In this document: positions 111 through 34,573 of the stretch, in pieces
Layout of the letters: the number at the start of each line of letters is the position of its first letter
How positions within the stretch are numbered: the stretch's first letter is position 1
NCBI GenBank assembly: GCA_902769055.1
Contig: CACXNL010000012.1
Span: 1 to 35,011, forward strand
Source: an uncultured Pseudomonadota bacterium
Lineage (GTDB): Bacteria > Pseudomonadota > Alphaproteobacteria > RUG11792
Reading direction: 5' to 3'
Length of the DNA stretch: 35,011 nucleotides
Notes under the pieces: model-generated
Told to the model about the DNA's origin: nothing
What the model saw: the letters and a program-made list of their open reading frames with translations, nothing else
The model's database searches: none
Translations under genes and position numbers: made by a program

Positions 111-998
111 ATGCTTCACGATACAGTTGATGACTTGGTTAATGATACACCAAAGGTCGACACACCACCGACTACGGTCGGAAGCGCTGCGACAAATTCC
201 GAGAAACTTCAGATAACGACAACTCCACGAACAGAAGTGACACCTCAAACCTCTTCCCAAAATATTTTATCCGCTACGTCTCAAACCGGAAACCTTCCTC
301 CATCTTCAACGACGCCTCCAAGTGCTGAAGCCAAAAAGGTTGGATTTGTGGACATAAATGGAAACATCCTAGTTGCTCCAAGCGATATGATTTTCCCAGC
401 TGAAATGCAAGATGGTGAAATGTATATTTTTTCAAAAGATATCGAAGCCTTGAAGAAAAAATTATCAGCAAATGGGCAAAGTCTGTCACAGATGTTTCCT
501 CAAATGAGAACCGGGAACTACCAGAGCAACCCAACTCAAGCAGCACCTGGGCAAGCAATAGCAGGACAAGTAAGTCCGGAAGAACAAATGGCGCCAAATC
601 AAACAGTGCCGGGACAATATCAGACAGCGCCTTGGATAAACAACAGTAAATCTTGGCAATATAATCCACAAGATGCGACGAATGCTGGAATGCCCCCACA
701 GTATCCCAGGCAATCGCAACTGGACAATTCTCCCCAAGGAAACACCCATCAAACAAATTCCTCTCAACAGGGAAATTCTCAGTGGAAATACCCCCAAAGT
801 GGAATGCAAGGGATGCCGGCTAGAGATCAAAACGGAAATGTAATCTCGCCATCAAATAACCAGTCGGGAGCGTCGAAAACTTCAGGGATGACAGGGAATG
901 GATATAATGCTCAAATTTTAGAACAACGTATGGATACAGCTATATCTACCAGAGATCCGAATAAAAAACCGATTATGTTCCAGTGTTATTTGGCATAA
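111..998 (+). CDS. Unrecognised low-complexity Q/N/P/S-rich protein (295 aa)
   Basis: I do not recognise this protein. Residues 1-75 are rich in Thr, Ser and Pro. Residues about 77-120 form the only segment that looks folded, with a short hydrophobic stretch reading GFVDINGNILVAP. Residues about 130-270 are a long Gln/Asn/Pro/Ser-rich tract with scattered Tyr and Trp, prion-like in composition. The C-terminus ends in FQCYLA. There is no signal peptide at this start. The ATG directly follows an in-frame TAG (108-110) and has no clear Shine-Dalgarno sequence, so the true start could be further in. A good intrinsic terminator follows the stop, which supports a real transcription unit. The next gene encodes another Q/N-rich protein, so the two may be a functional pair of surface or secreted proteins; that is inference. 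Confidence 0.6.
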   Translation: MLHDTVDDLVNDTPKVDTPPTTVGSAATNSEKLQITTTPRTEVTPQTSSQNILSATSQTGNLPPSSTTPPSAEAKKVGFVDINGNILVAPSDMIFPAEMQDGEMYIFSKDIEALKKKLSANGQSLSQMFPQMRTGNYQSNPTQAAPGQAIAGQVSPEEQMAPNQTVPGQYQTAPWINNSKSWQYNPQDATNAGMPPQYPRQSQLDNSPQGNTHQTNSSQQGNSQWKYPQSGMQGMPARDQNGNVISPSNNQSGASKTSGMTGNGYNAQILEQRMDTAISTRDPNKKPIMFQCYLA

Positions 999-4936: not shown

Positions 4937-5875
4937 TTATGCCTTTCCACCTCCTTGAACTATAAAATTTCCCGCTAGGGGATGACATTTATCATAAATT
5001 TCCGCAATATATTTCTTCGCGACATCCGCATAAATCTGAGTTGAAGATATAGATGAATGCCCCAAAAGTTCCTGAATTCCCCTCAAATCGCCGGTATTTT
5101 CCATTAAATGCGTTGCACAACTATGCCGAAGTGCATGAGGAGTTACTTTATCCGATAGCCCCAGCAATTTCCTTGATTTTTTAACCAACTTTTGTACAGA
5201 TGAAGCCGTCAATCTTTCGCCTCGATTATTCACAAACAGTGCAGTAGCGTCGGCAAACGGACAAGTATCTAAGTAATCAAGAACAACTGATTTAACAGTC
5301 TCCACAATCGGAACTACGCGCATTTTTCCGCCTTTTCCCAAAATAAAAACAGACTCAGATGAGGTTAAAAACTCATCTCTATCCACCCCCAAAGCCTCAC
5401 TCACCCGAAGCCCAACGGAATATATTAGAGTAAGCAGAGCCTTATCACGCTTAATAATCCAGCCAGTCTGCTTTATACTAGACACGGAAGTCATTATATC
5501 ATTTATTTGCGAAATATTCAATGGTCGTGGTAATGTTTTTTCAACTTTAGGAGGTTTTATAGATAAAACAGCACTATTTTCTATTTGTTTTTCTTTTATC
5601 AAAAATTTTATAAAACTTTTTACAGCCGAAAGCCCCCTTGAAATTGTTTTCGCTCTCTCCCCTGCATTTTTGCGACTAAGAAACCAGGCTCTAACATCCA
5701 ATCTGCCGAGATTTTTTAACTCATTGATATCGCATTTCTCTTCCTTATATCCTTCCAAAAAGAAAATCAGCAACTTTAAATCAGACGTATAAGAATTCAC
5801 AGTATTTTTAGATAAATTAAAGGAATGCCTCAAATATTGTTGCCATGAAGTTATAAATAAATCTAGTGAATTCAC
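4937..5875 (-). CDS. xerC: Tyrosine recombinase XerC
   Basis: Site-specific recombinase that, with XerD, resolves chromosome dimers at dif. The C-terminal catalytic domain shows the Arg in GLRVSEALG, the Lys in the LGKGGKMR turn, HALRH, LLGHSS and the nucleophile Tyr in STQIYADV. GDLRGIQELLGH and the ending IYDKCHPLA favour XerC over XerD. The N-terminal SAM-like core-binding domain begins with LDLFITSW. The frame stays open to a GTG at 5965, but that start would lie upstream of a good promoter (TTGTGT, 18 bases, TACAAT at 5907-5936). The GTG at 5875 gives 312 aa, a normal XerC length, and begins just before the conserved domain, so I chose it. Confidence 0.9.
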   Translation of the reverse strand: MNSLDLFITSWQQYLRHSFNLSKNTVNSYTSDLKLLIFFLEGYKEEKCDINELKNLGRLDVRAWFLSRKNAGERAKTISRGLSAVKSFIKFLIKEKQIENSAVLSIKPPKVEKTLPRPLNISQINDIMTSVSSIKQTGWIIKRDKALLTLIYSVGLRVSEALGVDRDEFLTSSESVFILGKGGKMRVVPIVETVKSVVLDYLDTCPFADATALFVNNRGERLTASSVQKLVKKSRKLLGLSDKVTPHALRHSCATHLMENTGDLRGIQELLGHSSISSTQIYADVAKKYIAEIYDKCHPLAGNFIVQGGGKA

Positions 5876-5906
5876 GAAATGTATCGTAAACAGAACACCA
5901 CTTCCT

Positions 5907-5936
5907 ATTGTAGCCCCTTTCAAGTCATGAACACAA
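5907..5936 (-). promoter_or_regulatory. Predicted xerC promoter
   Basis: On the minus strand TTGTGT (5936-5931) and TACAAT (5912-5907) are separated by 18 bases. The expected transcript start near 5900 lies about 25 bases ahead of the preferred GTG start at 5875. Confidence 0.55.
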
Positions 5937-5942
5937 AATGTG

Positions 5943-5951
5943 TGATACAAT
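5943..5951 (+). promoter_or_regulatory. Predicted metG extended -10 promoter
   Basis: TGATACAAT, an extended -10 element (TG-n-TACAAT), ends 31 bases before the metG ATG. No convincing -35 is present. It lies back to back with the xerC promoter. Confidence 0.5.
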
Positions 5952-5982
5952 TGCGACAATAGCACATTAGTGTTTAGTTAAT

Positions 5983-7524
5983 ATGAGCAGACTTTACATC
6001 ACAACTCCGATATATTATGTCAATGCGAAACCGCATATTGGGCACGCATATACGACTGTTGTTTGCGATGTTTTCGCTCGTTTTAATCGAATGCTAGGGG
6101 CGGATGTAAAGTTCACAACGGGCACGGATGAGCATGGCAAGAAAGTCGAGCAGAGCGCTGTAAAAGCCGGAATTTCTCCGCAGGAATTTGCTGATAATAT
6201 TTCGAAATTGTTTCGCGATCTCCTACCGGTACTAAATATATCAAATAATGATTTTATAAGAACTACTGAGCCTCGTCACAAAAAAACAGTACAACATTTT
6301 TGGAAAAAGCTGAAAGATGCGGGCTACATATACCTCGGCGAATATTCGGGGTGGTATGATATGCGGAATGAGGCGTATTTTGCTGAAGACGAGTTAGTCG
6401 ATGGAAAATCGCCACTGGGCGGCGAAGTGCAGTACATAACTGAGCCTTGCTACTTTTTCAAGCTTTCGGCGTTTCAGGACAAATTGCTGGAATTTTATGA
6501 AAATAATCCGGATTTTGTATACCCGGTACAGCGCAGAAATGAGATGCTGAGTTTCATAAAGCAGGGATTGCGCGATTTGGCGATTTCGAGGACTACTTTC
6601 AGTTGGGGCATACCGGTGCCTGATGATCCGAAACATGTTGTGTACGTGTGGCTCGACGCCCTGACGAATTATTTGACGTTGAACGGGTATCCGGACAATG
6701 AAAACCAAAATAATGATAAGTATTGGAATAATGTAATTCATTTTGTTGGGAAAGAAATAGTCAAGTTTCATGCGATATACTGGGTAGCGTTCCTGATGGC
6801 AGTCGGAATTAAGCCGCCGAAGCAGGTCGTTTCGCATGGGTGGTGGCTGAGCGAGGGCGAGAAGATGTCGAAATCCCTCGGGAATGTGCAGGATCCGTAC
6901 AAGTACTGCAGATTGTTCGGCTCCGACGCGCTGAGGTACTATATGCTGCGGGAGCTGACTTTTGGCTCGGATGGCAATTTTGCTTTAGAGGCGTTTATTC
7001 AGCGGTATAACTCCGTATTGGCGAATGCTTATGGCAATCTTTGTAACCGCGTACTTTCGTTTATATGCAAGCGGTGCAACGGAGTTGTTACTCGCCCAAC
7101 TGAGTTGTTGCCGGATGACGAAAAATTTATTGGTGAGGTTGATGGAGGTATTGAACAAGTTATACCTCTAGTAAGGCAGTACAATTTCAGTCGCTACCTC
7201 GAGAAGGTGGAGCACATGATTTCCCTGGCAAACCAATATGTGGATTACCAAAAGCCTTGGGGATTGAAGGACAGCGAACCGAAGAGAATGCAGGACATAC
7301 TGTTTATATTGGCAGAACAGATTTATAAGATCACAAAGTGCTTATACCCGGTAATTCCGCACACAGCAGAGAAGTTGCTGAAACAACTTGGGATACCGTA
7401 TGAATTAAAGTTCATACCTACTGAAAAAATACCAGATGTTATTCATATAACGGACATAGAGCCATTGTTTCCGAGAATAGATACAAGCGACATCCAGAAA
7501 CTCAATGTTTACGCCGAAGGGTAA
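5983..7524 (+). CDS. metG: Methionyl-tRNA synthetase
   Basis: Class I synthetase that charges tRNA-Met and initiator tRNA with methionine. The HIGH signature is at residues 18-21 (PHIGHAYTT) and KMSKS at 294-298. VYVWLDALTNY and FVGKEIVKFHAIYWVAF are strong family blocks. The connective segment reads GWYDMRNEAYFAEDELV, without the zinc-binding cysteines of the E. coli and Bacillus forms; this is the usual state in alphaproteobacterial MetRS. The C-terminal helical anticodon domain runs from about 370 to 500. At 513 aa it lacks the optional C-terminal tRNA-binding dimerisation domain. It stands alone, divergent from xerC and convergent with the PAP2 gene. Confidence 0.96.
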   Translation: MSRLYITTPIYYVNAKPHIGHAYTTVVCDVFARFNRMLGADVKFTTGTDEHGKKVEQSAVKAGISPQEFADNISKLFRDLLPVLNISNNDFIRTTEPRHKKTVQHFWKKLKDAGYIYLGEYSGWYDMRNEAYFAEDELVDGKSPLGGEVQYITEPCYFFKLSAFQDKLLEFYENNPDFVYPVQRRNEMLSFIKQGLRDLAISRTTFSWGIPVPDDPKHVVYVWLDALTNYLTLNGYPDNENQNNDKYWNNVIHFVGKEIVKFHAIYWVAFLMAVGIKPPKQVVSHGWWLSEGEKMSKSLGNVQDPYKYCRLFGSDALRYYMLRELTFGSDGNFALEAFIQRYNSVLANAYGNLCNRVLSFICKRCNGVVTRPTELLPDDEKFIGEVDGGIEQVIPLVRQYNFSRYLEKVEHMISLANQYVDYQKPWGLKDSEPKRMQDILFILAEQIYKITKCLYPVIPHTAEKLLKQLGIPYELKFIPTEKIPDVIHITDIEPLFPRIDTSDIQKLNVYAEG

Positions 7525-7538
7525 GTTCGCGGTACCAG

Positions 7539-7558
7539 TGTGAGCGCTAGCGCTTGCA
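7539..7558. repeat. 12-bp perfect palindrome in a hairpin between convergent genes
   Basis: AGCGCTAGCGCT at 7543-7554 is a perfect palindrome. With its flanks it can form an 8-bp stem around the loop CTAG. It spans the TAG stop of the PAP2 gene and lies just after metG. There is no T run on either strand, so it is at best a weak bidirectional terminator. Confidence 0.4.
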
Positions 7559-8269
7559 TTCGGTTGTTATTTGCTTAACAATGGGAAACACGCCGAATGC
7601 CCCAAACCAAATGCAGTAATTTAAGAACTTAGGAAAATTTCCTGCGATAAGAAGATATGTAAATAAGGTACATAAACATAATGCGATTTGATGATATCGG
7701 CGCTGTATTAAAGACGTAGCAACACCAAATCCTAAAATGCCATATGATCCGATTGCAACATCTATGGGGAGATGACCAATCAAAGTAACTGACAGTATCT
7801 GGAGCGCAAACGAAATTGTTATAAAAATAATCATAAATTTATCTTGCTCAATATTTCTTAGAAAAACATAATATATCGTTAAAAAACATACCGGCAACAA
7901 TGGTGTAAGTAGCACGTCGGAAATGTCGTGATAGCCAAGGTAAATCGTACTGAGCGATGCAAGTACAAGTGCAGCGGGACACAGGAAGTATAGCAACTTT
8001 GATTTATGCGTTATCATAAGCCAACCGAAAAACATTGTCGCGAAATTTATATGCCCACTCGGAAATCCATACTTCGTCGGCGAGGTAACAGGTGCTGGTA
8101 TCTTCAACAGATCCTTCAAAATTGCCTTATAGATCATCGCGAAAAGTAGCAGTATGATTAAATGTGCATATTCGGTACGCTTCGAGAAAATATAAAACAA
8201 CACAGCGACTAGCATCAGCAAGTAATCGTTGCTGATATACGAAAGGCACGTTGCAATTGTCGAAATCAT
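7547..8269 (-). CDS. PAP2-superfamily membrane phosphatase-like protein with altered active site
   Basis: An integral membrane protein of 240 aa with about six to eight hydrophobic segments. PAP2 enzymes remove phosphate from lipid phosphates such as undecaprenyl pyrophosphate or lipid A. The three motifs can be placed: K52 with AP at 59-60 where K-x6-RP is expected, PSGH at 70-73, and ST at 107-108 with H114 and D118 where SR-x5-H-x3-D is expected. Both phosphate-binding arginines are replaced, by Ala59 and Thr108, while both histidines and the Asp remain. Activity may be lost or the binding mode changed. The ATG overlaps the LolC/E stop by four bases (ATGA), so it is the last gene of a coupled three-gene unit. 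Confidence 0.8.
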   Translation of the reverse strand: MISTIATCLSYISNDYLLMLVAVLFYIFSKRTEYAHLIILLLFAMIYKAILKDLLKIPAPVTSPTKYGFPSGHINFATMFFGWLMITHKSKLLYFLCPAALVLASLSTIYLGYHDISDVLLTPLLPVCFLTIYYVFLRNIEQDKFMIIFITISFALQILSVTLIGHLPIDVAIGSYGILGFGVATSLIQRRYHQIALCLCTLFTYLLIAGNFPKFLNYCIWFGAFGVFPIVKQITTECKR

Positions 8270-9501
8270 ACTCGCAGCGCCTCGACCGGGTCAAGTTTTG
8301 ATGCTTTTTTAGCGGGGTATAGCGTCGCCATCAGGCACAAGACTATCGCGAATACGGCTATAAAGCACACTTCCATCCAGTCTGTTTTCGATGGAATTTG
8401 AGACAAAAAGTATATTTCTTCGCTGAACAGTTTGCTGTCCGAAAATTTCTCTAAAAATTGCTTTATCCGGTCAATATTCAGTGAAACCAGCAGCCCAAGA
8501 CTTATGCCAATACCAGTTCCCAGTATTCCAATTGCCGAACCTATCGTAAAAAATATCTGTAATATTGATTTTTTTGTCATTCCCATCGTGCGTAATATCG
8601 CTATATCTTTCACTTTACTGCTCGTCAACATTGTCAAACCCGAAATTATATTAAACACAGCGACAAGTATTATTATACTCAAAATCAATGTCATCACGTT
8701 TTTCTCGACCTCAACTGCGTGAAAAATGCTGGAATCCGAATGCTTCCAGTCGAGCACCATAAACCCACTGCCGAGCATCTGCACTATCTTTCGCGCTATT
8801 TCCTGCGAATTATCAACATTATCGATGAATATTTCAATTTGCGATACTTTCCCGGGCATTTCCCAGAAATCTTGCGCCTCAGCTAGCGGCATCAAAACAA
8901 TATTTTTGTCATACTCATTCATACCGACTTCGAATACGCCAGCAACAGTATATGTTTCACTTTTTACTGTTGTGCCCATAGTCGTAACTTCGCCATCCGG
9001 CGTCATAAGCTCCAGGGTATCGCCAATCTTGACGCCTAAAATTTCAGCCATCCGGCGCCCTATAAAAATCGACTGTTCTTTAAAAGCGGCTATCTTACCG
9101 GCTTTTATATGCTCTGAAATGAGATTTTTTTTCGTTAGCGACTGCTGTGACAACGCTTGCACAAGAGCTCCCCTGGCTTGCCCATTCGCCATAACTACTG
9201 CCTGCTGCTCTATTTGTGGAATAACTTTTAATATACGTTTGTCTATTTTCTCTATTTGCCTTACGACATCATCGTAATTATTTATACCTTTATGCTCAAC
9301 GTCGGATACCACAATGTGTCCCTTCATTCCGACGATTTTGTCCAGCAGCTCGGCTCTGAAGCCGTTCATTACCGATGTAACGATTATGAGCGTCGCGACG
9401 CCGAGAGCAATGCCGATGAATGAAAACCAGGTGACGACATACGCAAAACCCGAGCTTTTGCCGGATTTGAGGTACCGTAGCGCTATAAATCTCTCCAGCA
9501 T
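8266..9501 (-). CDS. lolC: Lipoprotein-releasing ABC transporter permease (LolC/LolE family)
   Basis: Inner-membrane permease of the Lol system, which extracts outer-membrane lipoproteins and passes them to LolA. The N-terminal block FIALRYLKSGKSSGFAYV and the following transmembrane segment with GIALGVATLIIVTSVMNGF are typical. A periplasmic domain covers about residues 50-260. Three more membrane segments follow (about 270-300, 315-345 and 375-400), ending in LYPAKKASKLDPVEALRV, the FtsX/MacB-type C-terminal signature. The length of 411 aa is normal. The ATPase gene lolD, usually next to it, is absent here. The ATG shares one base with the preceding stop (TAATG), so it is coupled to the GrpB-family gene. 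Confidence 0.93.
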   Translation of the reverse strand: MLERFIALRYLKSGKSSGFAYVVTWFSFIGIALGVATLIIVTSVMNGFRAELLDKIVGMKGHIVVSDVEHKGINNYDDVVRQIEKIDKRILKVIPQIEQQAVVMANGQARGALVQALSQQSLTKKNLISEHIKAGKIAAFKEQSIFIGRRMAEILGVKIGDTLELMTPDGEVTTMGTTVKSETYTVAGVFEVGMNEYDKNIVLMPLAEAQDFWEMPGKVSQIEIFIDNVDNSQEIARKIVQMLGSGFMVLDWKHSDSSIFHAVEVEKNVMTLILSIIILVAVFNIISGLTMLTSSKVKDIAILRTMGMTKKSILQIFFTIGSAIGILGTGIGISLGLLVSLNIDRIKQFLEKFSDSKLFSEEIYFLSQIPSKTDWMEVCFIAVFAIVLCLMATLYPAKKASKLDPVEALRV

Positions 9502-10229
9502 TATAAGGTCTCCAAATACGTATTAAATCTATTTTTGAAATACTCTGCATTTTCAGATACTTCAAAAAATCTCACTTCCTTGGATTTAGCATCAGCGTTC
9601 GCGTACCCGATTATATCTGCACCTTTATAAAAAATAACGCGAATATCATTTTCTTTAAACTTCGGAAAAACTTTTTTCTCGTAATCTTGCTCAGTATAAT
9701 GCGAAACCAACCGCATACAATATCCTGTAAATCCCGCCCTCCTCAGAACAGAAGTTATGAAATCATTCTTCGCAAGTGTGTATTCGTTCAGAAAATGTTC
9801 GTTTTCAGCAGTAGCTAGCAGCTTTTGTATCTTCAGTTTCAAATTGGAATACTCCTTGCGGGCATCTTCGTGAGTATTTAAGTAATCCCGGAAAGTCAAA
9901 AATCCTTCCAATTCAGGATCCCCAGGCAACAAAACATGCAGATGCGCACACAATGCCTCCGTCTTCTTGGAATAAAAATACCGAAACGGAATATTCAAAC
10001 AACCTTTATATTTGTAATGCAACGCCTCTAAACTTTTAGACCGCTCCAAATCTTTCACTACCAGCGCCATATCGATTTTCGGTTTCGCGTATATCTCAGC
10101 AATCGCCGTCGAACCAATATGAAAAACATCAACGAAATTTGATTGTTGGTTCTCTTTTATCGCATTGTATTCAATTTCATACAAATTTTCCCAATTTTTA
10201 TCGTGAAAAACCAGCTTATCAGATACCAT
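9501..10229 (-). CDS. GrpB/UPF0157-family protein with a C-terminal extension
   Basis: Residues about 10-170 match the GrpB family, whose fold is related to nucleotidyltransferases and whose role is poorly defined: FHIGSTAIAEIYAKPKIDMAL, then HLHVLLPGDPE, FRDYL and YSNLKLK. Family members are commonly about 170-180 aa. This one continues to 242 aa with a segment (about 172-242) of mixed strands and helices that I cannot assign; its VIFYKGADIIGYA stretch resembles part of an acetyltransferase fold only loosely. It begins a unit with LolC/E and the PAP2-like protein, joined by overlapping stop and start codons. A divergent promoter region separates it from murG. Confidence 0.82.
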   Translation of the reverse strand: MVSDKLVFHDKNWENLYEIEYNAIKENQQSNFVDVFHIGSTAIAEIYAKPKIDMALVVKDLERSKSLEALHYKYKGCLNIPFRYFYSKKTEALCAHLHVLLPGDPELEGFLTFRDYLNTHEDARKEYSNLKLKIQKLLATAENEHFLNEYTLAKNDFITSVLRRAGFTGYCMRLVSHYTEQDYEKKVFPKFKENDIRVIFYKGADIIGYANADAKSKEVRFFEVSENAEYFKNRFNTYLETL

Positions 10230-10262
10230 AACTATCCGCAGTAAAATGTCCTAGCCGACCTT

Positions 10263-10271
10263 ATTATAGCA
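10263..10271 (-). promoter_or_regulatory. Predicted extended -10 promoter for the grpB-lolC-PAP2 unit
   Basis: The minus strand reads TGCTATAAT, a perfect extended -10. The expected start near 10256 leaves about 27 bases to the ATG at 10229. No good -35 is visible. Confidence 0.65.
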
Positions 10272-10312
10272 TTCGTGCCTACTTTCGGCGTACAGCTCCC
10301 CCAAGGCTCTCG

Positions 10313-10321
10313 TGCTATAAT
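10313..10321 (+). promoter_or_regulatory. Predicted extended -10 promoter for murG-murC
   Basis: The plus strand reads TGCTATAAT, identical to the divergent element 42 bases away. The expected start near 10328 lies about 23 bases before the TTG start of murG. Confidence 0.65.
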
Positions 10322-10350
10322 GCGGAAGATTCAATGTTACAGAGAAAAGA

Positions 10351-11388
10351 TTGAAAAATCTGATAATCATAGCAGCTGGGGGGACTGGCGGACATGTGTT
10401 TCCGGCGGTGTGCTTAGCTGATGAGTTGAAAAAACGTGGGTATGAGGTATTGTTTGCGACGGATAGGCGCGGGGTAAAGTATCTGGGAGAATACGCAAAT
10501 AATGCAATAGTTCAGAGCATCGTAACTTCGTCGCGAATAAAACTTTATCTCAGTCTCATCTTTAATATTTTTAAATACTTTTTTGAGATTATTCGTTTAA
10601 ATCCCGCAATGGTCGTTGGATTTGGCGGATACCCATCTGTACCGTTCGTTCTGTTGGCGCAAATTTTGGGTAAAGAAACAGCGATACATGAGCAAAACGC
10701 CGTAATCGGCAAAGCTAATGCGCTGTTATCGCGAAAAGCAACAATAGTCGCTACGTCCTTTCCCGACACAAAAGGATTAGTAAACACTAAAAAAACAAAA
10801 TATATTGGAAATCCAACGAGGTTTGAGAAGCTATACGATAGTAACAAGCAAACTAAAAATGATGCTTGTACAATTTTGATTTTTGGAGGTAGTCAAGGGG
10901 CAAAGGTATTTTCAGAGACCGTTGTTGAAGCTATATGCGAATATGCACAGAATAAAAATGTCAAAGTACTGCATCAGGGTAGAAAACAAGATGTTGAAAA
11001 AATAAAAAAGGCGTACTCCGGTGCCAAAGTAACCAACACAGTTCAAGAGTTTTTCAATAATATTGGAGAACTGTATCAGCAATCCGATATAGTAATTTCA
11101 CGGTCGGGTGCATCGAGTGTATTTGAGATTATAGGCTTCCAAAAACCAGCGGTTTTAATACCGTATGGCAATTCGATAAATGGCGACCAGCTTGAAAATG
11201 CAAAATTTTTGGAAGCTCACGATGCGTGTATTGTTATTCGTGAGAATGAGTTAACAAAAGCGAAGTTAATACGTGTTCTGGAAAATATTCAGCACGAAAT
11301 TCCACGAATATCCGAAAATCTAAAGTCCCTCCGGGTGAGGAATTCGGCGCAAAAATTTGCGGATTGTCTAGAGGAGATAATAAAATAG
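10351..11388 (+). CDS. murG: UDP-GlcNAc transferase MurG (lipid II synthesis)
   Basis: Peripheral inner-membrane glycosyltransferase that adds N-acetylglucosamine to lipid I to make lipid II. The N-terminal glycine-rich loop GGTGGHVFPA (10-19) and the second-domain loop FGGSQGA are diagnostic, as are VGFGGYPSVP, AIHEQNAVIGKAN and the SRSGASSVFE block with PYGNSINGDQLENA. The 345 aa length is normal. The start is TTG, preceded by AGAGAAAAG; the only nearby ATG (10334) is out of frame. It lies 24 bases ahead of murC, as in dcw clusters, but ftsW and murB are not adjacent. Confidence 0.96.
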   Translation: MKNLIIIAAGGTGGHVFPAVCLADELKKRGYEVLFATDRRGVKYLGEYANNAIVQSIVTSSRIKLYLSLIFNIFKYFFEIIRLNPAMVVGFGGYPSVPFVLLAQILGKETAIHEQNAVIGKANALLSRKATIVATSFPDTKGLVNTKKTKYIGNPTRFEKLYDSNKQTKNDACTILIFGGSQGAKVFSETVVEAICEYAQNKNVKVLHQGRKQDVEKIKKAYSGAKVTNTVQEFFNNIGELYQQSDIVISRSGASSVFEIIGFQKPAVLIPYGNSINGDQLENAKFLEAHDACIVIRENELTKAKLIRVLENIQHEIPRISENLKSLRVRNSAQKFADCLEEIIK

Positions 11389-11412
11389 AGATGATGAATT
11401 GAGGAGAAGAAA

Positions 11413-12795
11413 ATGTTCGCGATTGGAAGTGAAGTAATACATTTTGTTGGAATTGGCGGCATCGGGATGAGCGGAATTGCCGAAATTATGCACTCGCTAG
11501 GGTACGTCGTTCAGGGCAGCGACAAACGGCAATCTCAAAATACCGACCGCCTGGAACGCATCGGGATTAAGGTATTCATTGGTCATGATGCGAAAAACGT
11601 TGAAAATGCGAGTGTTGTTGTTTATTCTTCTGCAATAAAGCCGAATAATCCCGAGTTGATACGGGCACGCGAGCTGAAAATCCCGTGTTTGACACGGGCA
11701 GAAATGTTGTCGCAAATCGTCAGGTTTAAGAAGTCGGTTGTAGTGTCTGGTTCGCACGGGAAAACCACGGTAACTTCGCTGTGCGCATCCATTTTGGAGA
11801 TGGCGTCGTTCCACCCGACCGTCGTCAATGGCGGGATAATTCACTCGTACAACACCAATGCCAAGTTGGGAACTGGCGACTGGGCAGTCATTGAATCTGA
11901 TGAGTCTGATGGCAGTTTTACGCAATTCTTCCCGACGATTGGAATAATAACGAATATTGACAAGGAACATATAACACACTATGGAAACTTTGAAAATTTG
12001 AAGAGCGCATTTAAAACTTTTCTTAATAATTTGCCCTTTTATGGCGCTGGGATTGTTTGTATAGACGACCCGAATATTGCGGATATTGTCAAAAATATGA
12101 CCGACCGCAAGATCATTACGTATTCCATCGAGCAGAATTCTATGTTCAGGGCGGTAAATATTAAGAAAAGTGAAAATGGTGCAGTGTTCGATGTCGCTCA
12201 TAATGATGAAATAATTCAAGATATTTCGATACCGCTTTTAGGCGACCACAATATTAAAAATGCGCTGTCCGCTATTGCAATGGCGACTGAGCTTGGGATT
12301 AGTATGGACATCGTTAAGGCGACATTATCTTCGTTTACTGGCGTTAATCGACGTTTTACTAAGGTTGGAGTAATTGGTGAGACGCTCGTTATTGATGATT
12401 ACGCGCATCACCCGACCGAAATAAAGTCACTGTTAAAGTCAGCAAGGCAAAAGGTCAGTGGCAAGATTGTCATAATACACCAGCCGCATAGATTTACACG
12501 CTTAAATACTCTGTTTGATGAGTTTTGTCATTGCTTTGACTTAGCGGATGAAATCATAATAACGCCGGTATACAAGGCTGATGATGTAGAGACTGCGCCG
12601 ATTACAGCGGATGATTTGTATAAAGCGCTAAAGTCTCAGGAAAAGGATGTTTTGTTTGCTAATGAACAAAACGAAATACAGGAAATACTTCGTGCGGAGC
12701 AATTTTCTAGAAACGATATAATATTGTTCGCCGGCGCAGGAAGTATATCGAAATGGGCGCATGATATTGTGAAGAATATCGGCAAACATATATGA
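11413..12795 (+). CDS. murC: UDP-N-acetylmuramate--L-alanine ligase MurC
   Basis: Cytoplasmic ATP-dependent ligase that adds L-Ala to UDP-MurNAc. The N-terminal Rossmann signature FVGIGGIGMSGIAE is at 11-24 and the ATP loop GSHGKTT at 113-119. ESDESDGSF, NIDKEH, GDHNIKNALSA and DDYAHHPTEI follow in the family order. The length of 460 aa is normal. A strong Shine-Dalgarno sequence (GAGGAGAAG) precedes the ATG. It is co-oriented with murG and with a small membrane-protein gene nine bases downstream. Confidence 0.97.
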   Translation: MFAIGSEVIHFVGIGGIGMSGIAEIMHSLGYVVQGSDKRQSQNTDRLERIGIKVFIGHDAKNVENASVVVYSSAIKPNNPELIRARELKIPCLTRAEMLSQIVRFKKSVVVSGSHGKTTVTSLCASILEMASFHPTVVNGGIIHSYNTNAKLGTGDWAVIESDESDGSFTQFFPTIGIITNIDKEHITHYGNFENLKSAFKTFLNNLPFYGAGIVCIDDPNIADIVKNMTDRKIITYSIEQNSMFRAVNIKKSENGAVFDVAHNDEIIQDISIPLLGDHNIKNALSAIAMATELGISMDIVKATLSSFTGVNRRFTKVGVIGETLVIDDYAHHPTEIKSLLKSARQKVSGKIVIIHQPHRFTRLNTLFDEFCHCFDLADEIIITPVYKADDVETAPITADDLYKALKSQEKDVLFANEQNEIQEILRAEQFSRNDIILFAGAGSISKWAHDIVKNIGKHI

Positions 12796-12804
12796 GGTAA
12801 TGCT

Positions 12805-13077
12805 GTGAAAAAGTGGATAATAGTTGTAGGATTATTCGGTTGCAGTGCACTTTTCTTTATATCGGGCTCGTTTGTGGGATATTTGTTATCCGAGACAAAA
12901 GATAACGTGACGACGCAAGTGAAACCGAAAAGAGCCCCCTCGGGAAAACTCGAACCGATACTTGGTCGGATAGTAGAAATACAGAAGGTCGAGCTGATAA
13001 ATAAAACCCGCGTACCGACGCCAAACGCGATATATAAGGCTCAGCAATACAAAGCACAATTTATTGGCAGTAACTAA
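12805..13077 (+). CDS. Small single-pass membrane protein, unrecognised (90 aa)
   Basis: The GTG start follows GAGGT at a good distance and lies nine bases after murC, so it is probably translated with murG-murC. Residues about 4-28 form one transmembrane segment or signal anchor with a glycine-rich end (FISGSFVGYLL). The remaining 60 residues are basic and polar, and would be periplasmic if the N-terminus stays inside. I recognise no family. In many dcw clusters murB, ddl or ftsQ sits here; this protein is too short for any of them, although a reduced bitopic division or cell-wall factor is possible. The convergent nuoN gene ends 37 bases away. Confidence 0.65.
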   Translation: MKKWIIVVGLFGCSALFFISGSFVGYLLSETKDNVTTQVKPKRAPSGKLEPILGRIVEIQKVELINKTRVPTPNAIYKAQQYKAQFIGSN

Positions 13078-13114
13078 AACGCGATGAAGAGCAGAGTATA
13101 AGATACATTTACGG

Positions 13115-14518
13115 CTAAATGAATATGAAAATTTTTGAGAAAAGCCGCAAAATAAATCCATAGAATAAAGTAGATAGTGGCAGCATAAACAGCAGCACCG
13201 TTGCGGCTGGTTTTCCCCCTACACACACCTGTTCACCCCCCGGTGATTTGAAGAAAAATCGAATCCATTTTATAACGTATGCAATCGATATAATCGAATA
13301 CATAGAAGCTATAACAAGTAACAAGTAGTTTTTGCTTTCAAGCAATATAGTAAAAATATTCAATTTTGCAAAAAAATTTCCGAATGGAGGAACTCCACAC
13401 AACGCACACATAGAAAATAACATCAATGCGCCATATGTTGGAGCCGCCTTCATAATGCCGGATAAATCTCCAAATTCCACCACTGTCCGGTATTTTTTTA
13501 AAAGCAATATCCCGGACAAGAAACAGAAAACTGCCAGCGATTGATAGCCCATGTACGTCATTATGGCTGGCGCTGCCTTCGCTATAGGAACTACTGACAC
13601 GATAAATCCGACATGCCCAACCGCGACTGATGCAATAAACCTATGTATACCTTTTTGAAAAATTGGCATTATTGCACCTAATAACATCGTTATTATCGCG
13701 GAAAATTTCAAGATAACTTTAAAAAAATGTATTCCCATAAAAATATAGACGATTTTCATAAATATAAATACCATAAAAAACTTCCAAATTGCTTCGAAAA
13801 GCAAAACTACAATACTAGAAGACTTTTCATAAACATCAAGCATCCAGCTGTGAAACGGAGCACCGCCGAGTTTAAACAGCATTGCACATAAGACTAAGAC
13901 GCTGCCAAAAGCTGTTTCCCAACCTATGGATACTTTTATATTTGAGAACGATAAACTTCCGAAATGGAAATAAAGTAAGCTGCAACCAAAAATAAGTATT
14001 GCACTCATAACGGCAGAAGTTAACAGAAAGCGTATGGCACATTTTCTATGAGAAGTATCGTTACAATCGTTAAGCAAAAGAAATCCTACAGAAAATGTAT
14101 ATAACTCTAACGCAATTATCAGCGTTACAAAATTGTTGGCAGATATTGACAAGTTGATTGCATTTGCGATGCCATATATTAGAATAAAAAAATTAGCATT
14201 TAATGCTTCATATGATCTCATGTAATATATGTATGAAAACCAGGCACAAAGGCAAACGAATAAACATGTTTTTATTTGTTCAATAGCGGAACTATATACA
14301 AATAGCTCAGTATTTAACTGTTTAGTATACGGATGACATGCTAGTACCACGATTAGTAAGATTAAGGAAAGTATCAGAGATACTTTTGGAAACACAGAAT
14401 TAAGACACTTTCCATTCAGAAAATTTTTCAAAATTATTAGAATAAACGACGCTAGTATTAGCAACATATCCGGAAATGCTAAGTTTAATTCAGAAAATAA
14501 CCTCAGCAGGGAAATCAC
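13115..14518 (-). CDS. nuoN: NADH-quinone oxidoreductase subunit N (NuoN-like)
   Basis: Antiporter-like membrane subunit of complex I, one of the proton-pumping subunits. The 467 aa form about 13-14 hydrophobic segments. Key charged residues can be placed: Glu in IALELYTFS (TM5), Lys in MLFKLGGAPFHSW (TM7), Lys in AIWKFFM (TM8) and Lys in FFAKLNIF (TM12). GAPFHSWMLDVYE is the usual NuoN signature with local differences. The start overlaps the end of birA by four bases. nuoN and birA are often neighbours in alphaproteobacteria, but there nuoN usually comes first; here birA precedes it. The other complex I genes are not in the window apart from the distant nuoB. Confidence 0.88.
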   Translation of the reverse strand: MISLLRLFSELNLAFPDMLLILASFILIILKNFLNGKCLNSVFPKVSLILSLILLIVVLACHPYTKQLNTELFVYSSAIEQIKTCLFVCLCAWFSYIYYMRSYEALNANFFILIYGIANAINLSISANNFVTLIIALELYTFSVGFLLLNDCNDTSHRKCAIRFLLTSAVMSAILIFGCSLLYFHFGSLSFSNIKVSIGWETAFGSVLVLCAMLFKLGGAPFHSWMLDVYEKSSSIVVLLFEAIWKFFMVFIFMKIVYIFMGIHFFKVILKFSAIITMLLGAIMPIFQKGIHRFIASVAVGHVGFIVSVVPIAKAAPAIMTYMGYQSLAVFCFLSGILLLKKYRTVVEFGDLSGIMKAAPTYGALMLFSMCALCGVPPFGNFFAKLNIFTILLESKNYLLLVIASMYSIISIAYVIKWIRFFFKSPGGEQVCVGGKPAATVLLFMLPLSTLFYGFILRLFSKIFIFI

Positions 14519-17114: not shown

Positions 17115-17594
17115 ATGTTTATCTTTCGACAAAATCTCGTAAATTACACTGTTTCTTCGGTAGCATTTTGTTTATTTTGTGCTTCAGTAATTTCGCAAAT
17201 CGCATCGGATAAGCAACCATGCCAACTTTGTTTAATTACTCGCTATCTCTTCTTTGTAGTTGCAATTGTTGCATTATTCTTCCATCGACCGAAAGCACTA
17301 CTTCCCATTACTTCTTTTTGCGTTGTTGCTTTCACTTTTTATCACCTTGGAGTTGAAAGCCATTGGTGGAAAGCACCCCAAGGATGCGTTTCCGAATTAC
17401 CAACATTAGAGGCTATTCAAAACGGCGAATTATCAAATCCTAATGGCGCATATTGTGACCAAGTTAATTGGAAAATTTTCGGCATTTCCTCAACGTTGTG
17501 GAGCTTTTTATTCTCAACATTCCTGTTTTGGCTTTCTAGTGTGACCTACGTCGTAAACTATTACCTCAGAAAAACGGAAGACGACGATGATTGA
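17115..17594 (+). CDS. dsbB: Disulfide bond formation protein DsbB
   Basis: Inner-membrane protein that reoxidises DsbA and passes electrons to quinone. Four transmembrane segments are visible. The first cysteine pair is C36 and C39 (PCQLC) in the first periplasmic loop. The second is C91 and C114 in a loop containing HLGVESHWWKAPQGC and GAYC, a form typical of alphaproteobacterial DsbB. The 159 aa length is normal. Its last eight bases overlap the next gene, a TssE-like baseplate gene, so the two are probably co-translated. This ties periplasmic oxidation to the type VI apparatus; effector or apparatus folding is a possible reason, which is inference. Confidence 0.92.
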   Translation: MFIFRQNLVNYTVSSVAFCLFCASVISQIASDKQPCQLCLITRYLFFVVAIVALFFHRPKALLPITSFCVVAFTFYHLGVESHWWKAPQGCVSELPTLEAIQNGELSNPNGAYCDQVNWKIFGISSTLWSFLFSTFLFWLSSVTYVVNYYLRKTEDDDD

Positions 17595-17955
17595 CACTCG
17601 AATAGATGCTCCATTCTTAACAAAATTTAATAGAAAATCCCCATACTTAAAGCCCAATGAGTTAATCGATTCTATAACCGATGAAATAGGAAATATTCTT
17701 GCGTCAAAGACTGCACTTTCGCCCTTTCTATACGGCGTGCCTGATTTACAATCGCTGGATAATTCGCCTGAATCGCTCAACACCTTTGCAGAACATTGCC
17801 GAAAGGCAGTTTTACGATTTGAGCCGCGAGTTCGTGATGTTGAAATATCAAACTGTCATATAAACACAAACACCCAATCACTGGAACTAGAGATTAGTTG
17901 TTTTGTGCCAACATTAAATCAAAAGCTCAAAACGCAAATAAATTTACCAAACTAA
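17587..17955 (+). CDS. tssE: Type VI secretion baseplate protein TssE (gp25/lysozyme-like family)
   Basis: A baseplate wedge component of the contractile injection machine, related to phage T4 gp25. The family pattern is clear in 122 aa: an N-terminal helix, then FLYGVPDL (47-54), the helix AEHCRKAVLRFEPRV (68-82) with the conserved FEPR, then alternating strands with VEISNCHIN and LELEISCFV. The length is a little below the usual 130-170 aa. It overlaps dsbB by eight bases and has no other type VI gene next to it; tssB and tssC are about 14.5 kb further on. An isolated phage-derived gp25 is the alternative, but the lack of other phage genes and the presence of tssBC argue for type VI. Confidence 0.82.
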   Translation: MIDTRIDAPFLTKFNRKSPYLKPNELIDSITDEIGNILASKTALSPFLYGVPDLQSLDNSPESLNTFAEHCRKAVLRFEPRVRDVEISNCHINTNTQSLELEISCFVPTLNQKLKTQINLPN

Positions 17956-29281: not shown

Positions 29282-29818
29282 ATGAAAAAAACAACAATAC
29301 TGACAAGTGCGTTATCCATAGCGCTTTGTGCGTTTCAAGGAGTATACGCAGACGAGGCACCAGCAGATCAATATGAAGGAAAAACCTTTATGTGGGGAGA
29401 GCCAATAGCAAATAAAGGCGATCTAGTGGAACGCATACAGAAGGAAATAGCAGCGACAGACGAACTTAATGACGAATTGTTCGACAAAAACGTGCCAGAA
29501 TACCTCGAATTGGCGGAAGGTCTCGCAATGGCACTAAAAGATGGATATGCCATATACGACGCGTCATCTGATGAATACGAAAAGGCAAAATCACTGTATG
29601 AACAAATGAAGATTGCACAAGAAATCTTCGATGATGCTTGCTCAGCCGACAAAACTGTAAATAGTGGCGAACTTTCTGAGAAAGATAAAGAATCGCTCTA
29701 CACTATAGACAACGCAAACCTTTCACCGGAGGATAAACAAACTTTGCTAAATGCAAAGGAACAGGTTCCGGAAATGATAAACAAGTTAAAAGAACTGTTA
29801 ACAAAAATAGAAGCATAA
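29282..29818 (+). CDS. Small acidic exported helical protein, unrecognised (178 aa)
   Basis: I recognise no family. A classical signal peptide (MKKTT, hydrophobic core, GVYA then cleavage near residue 23) indicates export to the periplasm or beyond. The mature part of about 155 residues is strongly acidic and almost entirely helical, with one Cys (in DDACSAD) and Leu-rich amphipathic stretches such as MINKLKELLTKIEA. The gene has a strong ribosome site (GAAGGAGAT), its own promoter and its own intrinsic terminator, so it is monocistronic and probably well expressed. A periplasmic chaperone, a binding protein or a host-directed secreted factor are all possible. Confidence 0.8.
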   Translation: MKKTTILTSALSIALCAFQGVYADEAPADQYEGKTFMWGEPIANKGDLVERIQKEIAATDELNDELFDKNVPEYLELAEGLAMALKDGYAIYDASSDEYEKAKSLYEQMKIAQEIFDDACSADKTVNSGELSEKDKESLYTIDNANLSPEDKQTLLNAKEQVPEMINKLKELLTKIEA

Positions 29819-31298: not shown

Positions 31299-32510
31299 TC
31301 ACTTATATATCTCCATTTCTAACAAATTATTGTTTCGAAGAAGTTTTAGTGATATTGCATTGCTACCAATGGAATATTTTTCAAGCCGTCGAAATGTGTC
31401 TTCGTCAGTAACTAATTTATTGTTGAACTTCAGAATTACATCGCCGGGACGAATTCCAGCATTATCCGCAAGCGATTTTAGTGCGACAGACTTTACTACG
31501 GCGCCCAAGTGCTTTATCCCTTTTGGGATTTTGAGAAGTTTTTCCAGATTTTTAGTAATTTTGACATTCCTCTTGTCATCAAATTCAATACCTAGAGATC
31601 CCCCATCTCCAAATTTTATAATGCCCGGAATCGCAATACGTGCTGCCTTTTTAATAACCGACACCGGAATTGCTGTTTGGTTTGTATTGCCTATGAAATC
31701 GATGGTGGGCGCTGCAATTCCGATGAGCTTACCATCCATATCGAGGATGGCACCTCCCGCCGTTTCCGCAATAATCGCCGGATTTGTTACTGGATTTTCT
31801 GCAACCAAAACATCATTTCCATTTTCTTTCTGGTATTTCAGGCGCTCTATGCCGGTCGCGAATAAAGAAAAATTGTTTGTCCTATTTGCTGATTTTAAAG
31901 CATTAACAAAATTTTCACCTTTAGCCTTACCGATAACTACCGCGCTATTCAAAAGTATTCTATCTTTACCATTTATAAATGGTGCATCGTTCCCGAGTTT
32001 GACATACGGGAAGTTGCATTTTTTATCTGACTTTATTCTAAAAAAAGCCAAATTTAAGTTTGGAATAGCTTTTATAAGTTCCGCTTTATAATCGTTGTTC
32101 CCAAGCGTAATTTTGTTGTTGTCCACCTGGGGACGCATTTCACTATTAACGGAAATCACAAAATTATCAGCATTCATTACTCCGGAATAAGTTGTACATA
32201 CTATTCCGCCTGAAGAAATAAGAATACCTGAAATAACTCCTATTCTGTAATGGTGTTTCTTCAGTCGCTGTCTCACTGACGAATTGTATATAAATCCGTC
32301 ATCGTCGGCTTCATTACTTATTGTATATATCAAAACGACTGCGCTGGCGCAATCGCGGATGACTGTTTTAATTCCGTTTATTTCAAATTTATCGATTTGT
32401 TCTTTTTGTTTTTTCGCCAACTCGGATTTTGTTACGACATTATACGCCGCGCACGAATACGTAAGCGATGCGGCGCAACATGTCAACAAAAACCGCTGCA
32501 AAACCATCAT
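31299..32510 (-). CDS. HtrA/DegP-like protein with PDZ domain and no catalytic triad (predicted pseudoprotease)
   Basis: An exported trypsin-fold protein of 403 aa. A signal peptide covers about residues 1-22. The protease-like domain (about 45-290) aligns with HtrA proteins at SGILISSGGIVCTTY, NLNLAFFRI and AGGAILDMDGKLIGIAAP. The His position is Tyr108, the Asp position is Asn153 and the Ser position is Ala251 (ETAGGA in place of GNSGG), so proteolysis should be impossible. One PDZ domain follows (about 302-403, with GAVVKSV and AGIRPGDVILKFNN). The ATG overlaps the tssC stop by four bases, so it is coupled to the type VI sheath genes. A scaffold, chaperone or substrate-binding role in the periplasm is inferred. 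Confidence 0.87.
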   Translation of the reverse strand: MMVLQRFLLTCCAASLTYSCAAYNVVTKSELAKKQKEQIDKFEINGIKTVIRDCASAVVLIYTISNEADDDGFIYNSSVRQRLKKHHYRIGVISGILISSGGIVCTTYSGVMNADNFVISVNSEMRPQVDNNKITLGNNDYKAELIKAIPNLNLAFFRIKSDKKCNFPYVKLGNDAPFINGKDRILLNSAVVIGKAKGENFVNALKSANRTNNFSLFATGIERLKYQKENGNDVLVAENPVTNPAIIAETAGGAILDMDGKLIGIAAPTIDFIGNTNQTAIPVSVIKKAARIAIPGIIKFGDGGSLGIEFDDKRNVKITKNLEKLLKIPKGIKHLGAVVKSVALKSLADNAGIRPGDVILKFNNKLVTDEDTFRRLEKYSIGSNAISLKLLRNNNLLEMEIYK

Positions 32511-33973
32511 CCAGCTCTTGCAGGAAGCGTCGCAACTAGCCGTATCGAAGCGGTCAGTTCCTCCATCTGGAAGTGCGGACGCAGGTATATGACAGACTTA
32601 TACGCCCCCGGCGAGCCCGGAACATCGTAAACATCTATCCTCCCTTCTCGAAGTGGGTACGCCGCCTTTATCGAAGCTGGCGCATCATCATTCAGGAGGA
32701 TGTACGACGAAAGCCAAGTGTTTAGGTAATTCTCGACATTTTCCTTAGTCAAGAAGGCTCCAATTTTGTCTCGCATCAAAACTTTGATGTAGTGCGCAAA
32801 TCGAGATGCCGCCAATATATAAGTTATCCTTGCCGACAGTGAGGCATTGGCGTTCGCATCGTCCAGGTTGTATACCTTCGGTTTTTGCGTTGTCTGTCCT
32901 CCGAAAAACACAGCGTAATCGGTGCCTTTGCAGTAGCACGCTGCGATAAATCCAAGGTCGCTCAGCTCTTTTTCCCGGCGGTCAGTTATCGCAACTTCAG
33001 TCGGACACTTGACTGTTTTGTCACCTTCAAGGGTTTTGAAAACATACGTCGGAAGCCCCTCGATTACTCCTCCGCCCTCAACTCCTCGAATAGCGGCAGT
33101 CCAGCTGTATTTCGCAAAAGCGTCAGTTATCCTTTGTCCGAGCGCATACGCCGGATTTCCCCAGCAGAAGCGGTCGGTATCTCCAACTCCGACATCCTCT
33201 TTGAAGTTAAATTCCGCAACTGGCAACGTATTTGGTCCATACGGCAATCTCATTAAAATTCTCGGAAGTAGCAGCGCAACATACCTAGAATCCTCGGTGT
33301 TTCTGAAGGAATTCCACTTGATGTAATCAGGCGATTCAAAAATCTTCGCCAAATCCCTCGGAAGCGGCATATCTTCAAATTTGTCCAAATTGAAAAACAG
33401 CGATGAAACAGCCGAAATAAATGGGGTATGCGCCATCGCTGCCAAGCCCGAGATATGTTCCAAAAGCTGGATATCCTGAGGGTGATTTGTAAACTCAAAA
33501 TCCCCAATCAAGCACGAATATGGTGAACCACCGAAAGTGCCGTATTCCTCCTCGTAAATCTTCTTGAATAAAGCGCTCTGGTCAAACTCGATAGCTTTCG
33601 TCAAATCGTCCCGAATGTCTTTCATCGACGCATTCATAAGACGAATTTTCAGCCTCGTACTGGTCTCGGTATTCATCACAAAATAGTAAAGCCCACGCCA
33701 CGACCCTTCGAGCTTCTGGAAATTCGGATTATGCAGTATCTCGTTGATTTGCGCAGTCAAAAGCTCATCAATCTCCGCAATCCTTCGCGTCAAAAACGCA
33801 ACGATGCCGGATTCCTGTGGCGCCTCTTTCAAATCCTGAAGTTCATTGACAAGCTCAGCCAGCAAGTCAACAGCGTTGTCCTCTTGCTCAGGGTACCTCG
33901 CCATTTTCCTTTCGTGAAGCAGTATATCGAGGAGTTTTGCTTCATCTGGTATTATGATTACTTCGTCCGCCAT
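32507..33973 (-). CDS. tssC: Type VI secretion contractile sheath large subunit TssC (VipB)
   Basis: Large sheath protein that, with TssB, forms the contractile tube around Hcp. At 488 aa it has the usual length. Family blocks are FQKLEGSWRGLYYFV (about 86-100), LIGDFEFTNHPQDI, PFISAVSSLFFNL, RYVALLLPRILMRLPYG, FCWGNPAYALGQRI, LPTYVF and, near the C-terminus, YILAASRFAHYIKVLMRDKIG. A good ribosome site (AAAGGAGATG) precedes the ATG, 21 bases after tssB. tssB-tssC is the conserved type VI order; the next type VI genes (hcp, tssE, tssF) do not follow, and the HtrA-like gene takes their place. Confidence 0.96.
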   Translation of the reverse strand: MADEVIIIPDEAKLLDILLHERKMARYPEQEDNAVDLLAELVNELQDLKEAPQESGIVAFLTRRIAEIDELLTAQINEILHNPNFQKLEGSWRGLYYFVMNTETSTRLKIRLMNASMKDIRDDLTKAIEFDQSALFKKIYEEEYGTFGGSPYSCLIGDFEFTNHPQDIQLLEHISGLAAMAHTPFISAVSSLFFNLDKFEDMPLPRDLAKIFESPDYIKWNSFRNTEDSRYVALLLPRILMRLPYGPNTLPVAEFNFKEDVGVGDTDRFCWGNPAYALGQRITDAFAKYSWTAAIRGVEGGGVIEGLPTYVFKTLEGDKTVKCPTEVAITDRREKELSDLGFIAACYCKGTDYAVFFGGQTTQKPKVYNLDDANANASLSARITYILAASRFAHYIKVLMRDKIGAFLTKENVENYLNTWLSSYILLNDDAPASIKAAYPLREGRIDVYDVPGSPGAYKSVIYLRPHFQMEELTASIRLVATLPARAG

Positions 33974-33994
33974 TTTTACATCTCCTTTCCATAA

Positions 33995-34573
33995 CTACTT
34001 AGCCTCCTCCGGCTTTGCCCCTTCCGACTTTTCGGTCTCAGGGGAACCTTCACCCTCAGGTTTTGGTCTTTCCGCCAACTTCGCCTCTACTTCAGTTTTT
34101 AACTTTTGCAAATTATCGTTATTTTTCATTATTTGTGTTAGGATAGCCTCCAACGCATCATTCCCATCCATTTTTGTTATCAAGTTTTTGAGATTGTTTC
34201 GTTTTTGATAGAGAGCAGCCAAGGCGGGGATATTTTTTGCCAAGTTCTGAGGTTCGAAATCAGACATATTCTTGAACATCAACTCGACGCTTATTTCGGG
34301 ATTATCGTCAGATAGCTTATTTGCGACACGAATGACCAATCTCGGATGTATGACTGCCATTACATCCATAAAGTTGTCCCTATCTATCTCGACAAATTTG
34401 CGATTTTTTATGGGAGGGAGTGGATTTTCAGGATTTCCAGATAAATCAGCCAAAACTCCGACAACAAACGGTAATTCCTTCTTTTCAATGGCATCACCAA
34501 TCTCCACATCATAGGTAATCTGCACCCTAGGCTTTCTCACTCTATCAAGGGTATGTTGTCTGCTCTCCGCCAT
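33995..34573 (-). CDS. tssB: Type VI secretion contractile sheath small subunit TssB (VipA)
   Basis: Small sheath protein that interlocks with TssC and carries the site recognised by the recycling ATPase ClpV in many systems. RVQITYDVEIGDAIEKKELPF (17-37) and VGVLADLSGNPE are diagnostic, followed by FVEIDRDNFMDVM and FKNMSDFEPQNLAK. Residues 1-165 are the family domain. The tail (about 166-192) is Pro/Glu/Lys-rich, probably disordered, and longer than in many homologues. It is the first gene of the operon in this window. I found no convincing promoter upstream. Confidence 0.95.
   Translation of the reverse strand: MAESRQHTLDRVRKPRVQITYDVEIGDAIEKKELPFVVGVLADLSGNPENPLPPIKNRKFVEIDRDNFMDVMAVIHPRLVIRVANKLSDDNPEISVELMFKNMSDFEPQNLAKNIPALAALYQKRNNLKNLITKMDGNDALEAILTQIMKNNDNLQKLKTEVEAKLAERPKPEGEGSPETEKSEGAKPEEAK

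Follow-up and report, generated by a model that had tools for sequence, protein, structure and literature searches.

The stretch of DNA analysed here, referred to below as the window, comprises the 35,011 nucleotides of contig C12 of a draft genome (G000; 807 kb, 76% complete) of an uncultured alphaproteobacterium and carries on its reverse strand an operon of three genes, two of which code for the sheath of a type VI secretion system. The small sheath subunit is encoded by tssB (33995..34573 (-), 192 amino acids (aa); TIGR03358, 183 bits; PF05591, 186 bits) and the large one by tssC (32507..33973 (-), 488 aa; TIGR03355, 651 bits; PF05943, 428 bits). The third gene (31299..32510 (-)), which is the main subject of this work, specifies a protein of 403 aa, hereafter pseudo-HtrA, recognised as a relative of HtrA-type proteases by matches to the Trypsin_2 and PDZ families, an AlphaFold2 (AF2) model, Foldseek and the alignment of its family. 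The stop codon TGA of tssC and the start codon ATG of pseudo-HtrA are merged in the sequence ATGA, giving an overlap of 4 nucleotides; since a second ATG comes right after the first, the actual start may lie one codon later. A preliminary description of the window had placed this gene third in a tssB-tssC operon with a four-base overlap to tssC, and both points stand, all three open reading frames (ORFs) being in place and the sheath family matches being strong. According to TssC, the closest named relatives are a metagenome-assembled genome (MAG) from goat rumen, other uncultured MAGs and termite-type Holosporales MAGs. The main comparison set consisted of 35 genomes from the order to which the window belongs, a lineage of gut-associated bacteria; all of them are draft assemblies, and little weight can be given to an absence where completeness is low.

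Fold and lost protease site of pseudo-HtrA

The protein matches Trypsin_2 (PF13365) over residues 94-265 with 39.8 bits at a cut-off of 27.6, while its C-terminal part contains a single PDZ domain detected by PDZ_2 (PF13180; 38.2 bits, cut-off 27) and by PF17820 (34.5 bits). The AF2 model has a predicted local distance difference test score (pLDDT) of 86.8, and the top Foldseek matches for it are DegQ and DegP with E values of about 1e-19. PF13365 taken together with the secondary structure of the model delimits a trypsin-fold domain at approximately residues 58-300 (31611..32339 (-)), and the two PDZ profiles together with column conservation place the PDZ domain at about residues 303-403 (31302..31604 (-)), with a conserved LGI loop at 306-308, in which G307 is present in 24 of 25 family members. 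Hydropathy assessed by hand suggests a signal-peptide-like stretch over approximately the first 22 residues (32445..32510 (-)), and a hydrophobic N-terminus was found in the same way in essentially all members, so that the family is predicted to be exported. An interpretation as lipoprotein was rejected given the lack of a conserved Cys in the N-terminal region. The trypsin fold and PDZ domain proposed initially are thus confirmed by family matches above the cut-offs and by the resemblance of the predicted structure to DegQ and DegP, while export is a prediction only. A larger pseudo-HtrA of 655 aa is encoded in L029 (G031) and L044, where the initial strands of the trypsin domain are followed by a long acidic insert.

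The state of the catalytic site was assessed in an alignment of 25 pseudo-HtrA members with the intact DegP of the same genome as a yardstick. Three alignments (MAFFT, hhalign and hmmsearch versus H. pylori HtrA) agree in assigning Ser109 (codon 32184..32186 (-)) to the position of the catalytic His, Asn153 (32052..32054 (-)) to that of Asp and Ala251 (31758..31760 (-)) to that of Ser. The preliminary description had named Tyr108, Asn153 and Ala251; the last two are correct, whereas Tyr108 is a neighbour of the residue actually occupying the His position, and this shift by one leaves the conclusion of triad loss unchanged. In the family, the Asp position is filled with Asn or Gly in all members but one, and variability is high at the His and Ser positions, with 2.76 and 2.73 bits versus domain means of 1.8-2.0. 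Glu249 (31764..31766 (-)), standing in place of the first Gly of GNSGG, is invariant, as are G252 and G253, and the resulting E-x-x-GG is found in 25/25 sequences, so that the GNSGG motif with its oxyanion Gly is not kept. When the three catalytic positions are compared across homologues, not a single family member possesses the full His-Asp-Ser triad, indicating that it is the whole family which lacks the protease site rather than one damaged gene. An intact triad located elsewhere in the protein, which would speak against the loss, also found no confirmation: there is no conserved His column anywhere in the family (the best one comprises 10/25), hence no conserved His-based triad is hidden at another place, and no conserved Cys column exists either. 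The ratio of non-synonymous to synonymous substitution rates (dN/dS) between relatives amounts to 0.10-0.19, with dS partly saturated, showing that pseudo-HtrA is under purifying selection; values well below 1 along with open reading frames rule out a decaying pseudogene.

Distribution of the family and its linkage to tssC

Within the order, tssC was detected in 30/35 genomes and pseudo-HtrA in 28 of those 30, always directly behind tssC. In G003, the same place is taken by a strongly diverged ORF with HtrA and PDZ matches, and in G009, only about 320 bases of the contig remain beyond tssC, so that the respective slot is cut off. No pseudo-HtrA was found in tssC-less genomes of the order, the weak match in G028 covering only the part in common with ordinary DegP. 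Gene order around the trio is scrambled: among 13 loci, no other gene family occurs in more than 4, and the commonest recurring neighbour is glycerol-3-phosphate acyltransferase. The association with type VI genes is therefore not an occasional one, as all 28 recognisable homologues adjoin tssC, and the core claim, that an HtrA-like protein with a dead catalytic site is produced along with the type VI sheath, extends to the whole order. The dead family behind tssC is real and more general than could be read from the single window. Its members diverge much more than the adjacent sheath protein, their identity among relatives being 28-74% versus 75-98% for TssC.

Outside the order, the picture is different. 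In sister lineages (L047-L068), the slot behind tssC is mostly occupied by a divergent Hcp some 190 aa long, and no relative of pseudo-HtrA was revealed in L047-L112 by the hidden Markov model (HMM) of the family. When the same HMM was run over 385 genomes of the class, members of the order scored 237-558 bits, and no score beyond the order exceeded 90 bits; matches there were discarded as homologues because they cover only parts in common with ordinary HtrA or DegP. The open-access literature contained no earlier report connecting HtrA, a PDZ protein or a pseudoprotease with type VI secretion.

The C-terminal peptide of TssM and other parts of the system

A possible partner of pseudo-HtrA came to light in TssM, which in this order measures about 1460-1600 aa and has an IcmF-related N-terminal domain with no recognisable IcmF_C. 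The initial impression that TssM is missing (PF06744, 0/35) was dropped, since the protein does occur and only its C-terminal part has diverged. In the complete TssMs of the order, a conserved periplasmic part is followed by a variable low-complexity linker (entropy of about 3 bits at positions -30 to -45) and then by a common end peptide, approximately [IV]-E-[IV]-[SA]-E-E-P-I-x-COOH, which is present in 22 of the 24 sequences. This conserved peptide is new here. The motif always ends exactly one residue from the C-terminus, with Pro at -3 in 21/22 and Ile at -2 in 20/22; TssM of the window's genome is cut by a contig end. None of 16 sister-lineage TssMs carries the motif, and among 6206 ORFs of at least 80 codons in the loci compared, exactly 22 end with this pattern, all of them TssM. 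The two tail-less proteins of the order belong to G003, the genome with the diverged pseudo-HtrA, and to G004, which is 96% complete and in which neither tssC nor pseudo-HtrA was found. In the TssM tree, the order forms one clade; G004 is nested in it on a long branch and thus looks like a case of joint loss, while G003 may be basal.

As to other components, TssK is encoded in 33/35 genomes and TssF in 30/35, both being present in the genome of the window, and tssK, tssL and tssM lie together where contigs allow. TssJ (PF12790) was found in 0/35 genomes of the order, although a very diverged TssJ may escape this search. Hcp was likewise missed by PF05638 (0/35), but a profile built from the sister lineages yielded a diverged candidate of 216-220 aa in 26/35 genomes, including that of the window (L160 1489-2151 (-), G000:C3; 220 aa), where it has no Pfam or NCBIfam match. 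Given its alignment to sister Hcp with an hhalign probability of 85%, this protein is tentatively assigned as Hcp. The location of this candidate elsewhere in 26/35 genomes led to rejection of pseudo-HtrA as a functional Hcp replacement and suggests that only the gene slot behind tssC has changed. A probable tssE of 122 aa is situated in the window outside of the operon (17587..17955 (+)); it matches PF04965 above the cut-off (33.7 bits) and TIGR03357 with 47.1 bits at a cut-off of 53.2. Adjoining a dsbB-type gene far from tssBC, it adds to the type VI genes dispersed over this genome.

Several further observations concern the surroundings of these genes. In the genome of the window, the gene immediately upstream of tssK codes for a ClpB/ClpV-type AAA ATPase (L121 2657-5224 (-)). 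Tandem paralogous ORF families occupy positions 5600-13600 of the same locus (G000:C15) near tssK-tssL; two of them weakly match the Peptidase_M91 'effector protein' family, and these paralogs could be type VI cargo with partner genes. In the window itself, three ORFs lack any Pfam match: 29282-29818 (+), coding for 178 aa with a signal-peptide-like start, 111-998 (+) for 295 aa and 1167-3794 (+) for 875 aa.

Proposed role and its alternatives

The explanation we favour is that pseudo-HtrA is a periplasmic non-catalytic adaptor, which holds the membrane complex through the tail of TssM; we consider the chances of this explanation to be about evenly divided. In its favour are the constant place behind tssC amid scrambled neighbours, the eroded triad next to invariant E249, G252 and G253, purifying selection, the intact DegP of the same genome, the TssM peptide with its matching distribution and the failure to detect TssJ. 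The protein would be made together with the sheath proteins, then exported, and would work by binding instead of cutting. Its most likely ligand would be the C-terminal tail of TssM, gripped by the PDZ domain or by the dead substrate groove, whereby pseudo-HtrA might anchor, cluster or gate TssL-TssM in the periplasm of a system having no recognisable TssJ. The fixed distance of the motif to a free C-terminus, the flexible linker in front of it and the conserved PDZ domain suggest such binding, though the strand-like motif could lie in the dead substrate groove rather than in PDZ. Of the three roles mentioned in the preliminary description (scaffold of the membrane complex, effector chaperone or sensor), the periplasmic scaffold gains support through the TssM tail. 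A further-reaching version, according to which a former HtrA protease is now a core lineage-specific periplasmic subunit of the type VI system, docked on a dedicated TssM peptide and forming a clamp that takes over part of the work of TssJ and of the TssM C-terminal domain, appears to us rather doubtful.

Several points weigh against the adaptor. PDZ domains of HtrA proteins usually prefer a hydrophobic C-terminus, yet the tail mostly terminates in Gly or Glu, or else in Arg, Asn or Thr, and not in a hydrophobic residue. The pairing of tail and pseudo-HtrA is observed in one lineage with two exceptions, so part of it is explained by common ancestry, and the tail pattern was written after the sequences had been seen. 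The coincidence is also imperfect: G003 has a diverged pseudo-HtrA and no tail, while three drafts (G005, G018 and G028, 64-79% complete) have the tail with both tssC and pseudo-HtrA absent from their assemblies. Finally, sister lineages seem to be devoid of standard TssJ too, yet they do without pseudo-HtrA. One-for-one replacement of TssJ was dropped for this reason, as the lineages reported to be short of standard parts (PMC11909080) also lack pseudo-HtrA, and the sister-lineage TssM that was scanned likewise matches the TssM model in the N-terminal part only.

Other explanations can be confronted with the same data. Being closest in fold to DegP and DegQ and retaining a conserved PDZ domain, pseudo-HtrA might act as DegP does without proteolysis, i.e., as a periplasmic holding chaperone with a general protective function for exported components or cargo of the type VI system, not fixed in the complex, with the TssM tail being one of its clients or unrelated. 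Faster evolution than that of TssC is to be expected if clients vary; nevertheless, the second PDZ domain of DegP is missing, an intact DegP is already encoded, and a single dedicated conserved peptide on one protein exceeds the needs of a general chaperone, making this option unlikely, though not negligible. The presence of intact DegP in the same genome may be regarded from another side, since a dead partner could activate or steer DegP at the membrane complex of the type VI system in the way MamO, a repurposed HtrA, activates MamE (PMC4794232). We give this only a small chance, because the gene accompanies tssBC instead of degP, and no sequence feature examined points to DegP as the partner.

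The layout of pseudo-HtrA, a membrane-near N-terminus followed by a protease-type domain and one PDZ, also resembles DegS and admits a non-structural sensor that would read the envelope state via PDZ and signal to the type VI system. However, sensors of the DegS kind signal by cleavage, which is lost here, and the operon offers no signalling partner, so such a function is improbable. That the gene is a mere passenger sharing the tssBC promoter, with no role in type VI secretion, is conceivable as far as compact operons of small genomes can hold unrelated neighbours together, but is made very improbable by the preservation of the trio in 28 genomes despite scrambling of all other neighbours and by the fact that pseudo-HtrA was never found without tssC. 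Enzymatic activity based on a non-standard mechanism, for instance, on a Ser-Lys dyad, is hardly credible: K195 is conserved in 24/25 members and certain Ser positions show good conservation too (S123, 22/25), but conserved His and Cys columns are lacking, and Glu replaces the oxyanion Gly in all members.

Comparison with described systems helps to delineate what is particular to the putative adaptor. With HtrA, DegP, DegQ and DegS (MEROPS S1C), it shares predicted export, the trypsin fold, a C-terminal PDZ domain and the best matches in sequence and structure, the one-PDZ layout being that of DegS, but differs in the absence of the triad, in Glu substituting for the oxyanion Gly and in the fixed linkage to tssBC. 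A precedent for a repurposed HtrA is the magnetosome pseudoprotease MamO, alphaproteobacterial as well and with a degenerate active site of HtrA type (PMC4794232). MamO serves a large membrane-bound assembly without acting as a catalyst, as is proposed for pseudo-HtrA, and the MamO model NF040961 does score pseudo-HtrA, albeit at 33 bits, far below the cut-off of 800. Unlike MamO, pseudo-HtrA has no magnetosome context, being linked to type VI secretion, and lacks any conserved His that could form a di-His metal site. In terms of role, an analogy may be drawn with AsaA of Acinetobacter, a periplasmic lineage-specific accessory protein of the type VI system, which is reported to bind TssM and to be required for assembly (PMC6602968). 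Pseudo-HtrA, also lineage-specific and encoded with type VI genes, may work likewise, although the AsaA gene is the first in a large cluster and that of pseudo-HtrA is third behind tssBC.

For relatives of Holosporales, type VI genes were described as scattered islands including [tssB-tssC-x] and [tssK-tssL-tssM], with a diverged Hcp and a TssJ hard to find (PMC8163844, PMC11909080), and a 2025 review considers the system to be probably non-standard (PMC11909080). The order of the window exhibits similarly scattered islands, a diverged Hcp candidate and an elusive TssJ. In sister lineages, however, x is hcp, whereas here x is pseudo-HtrA with the Hcp candidate placed elsewhere, and TssM of this order bears the conserved C-terminal tail. 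To the question of how a type VI apparatus is assembled in Holosporales and related bacteria without recognisable standard parts, pseudo-HtrA contributes a concrete lineage-specific part occurring throughout one order, along with a short and defined TssM peptide. If the binding proposed here is true, this would be a rare example of a degraded protease turned into a part of an injection machine, and a single lineage would allow the intact protease, its dead relatives and the ligand that fits them to be traced together.

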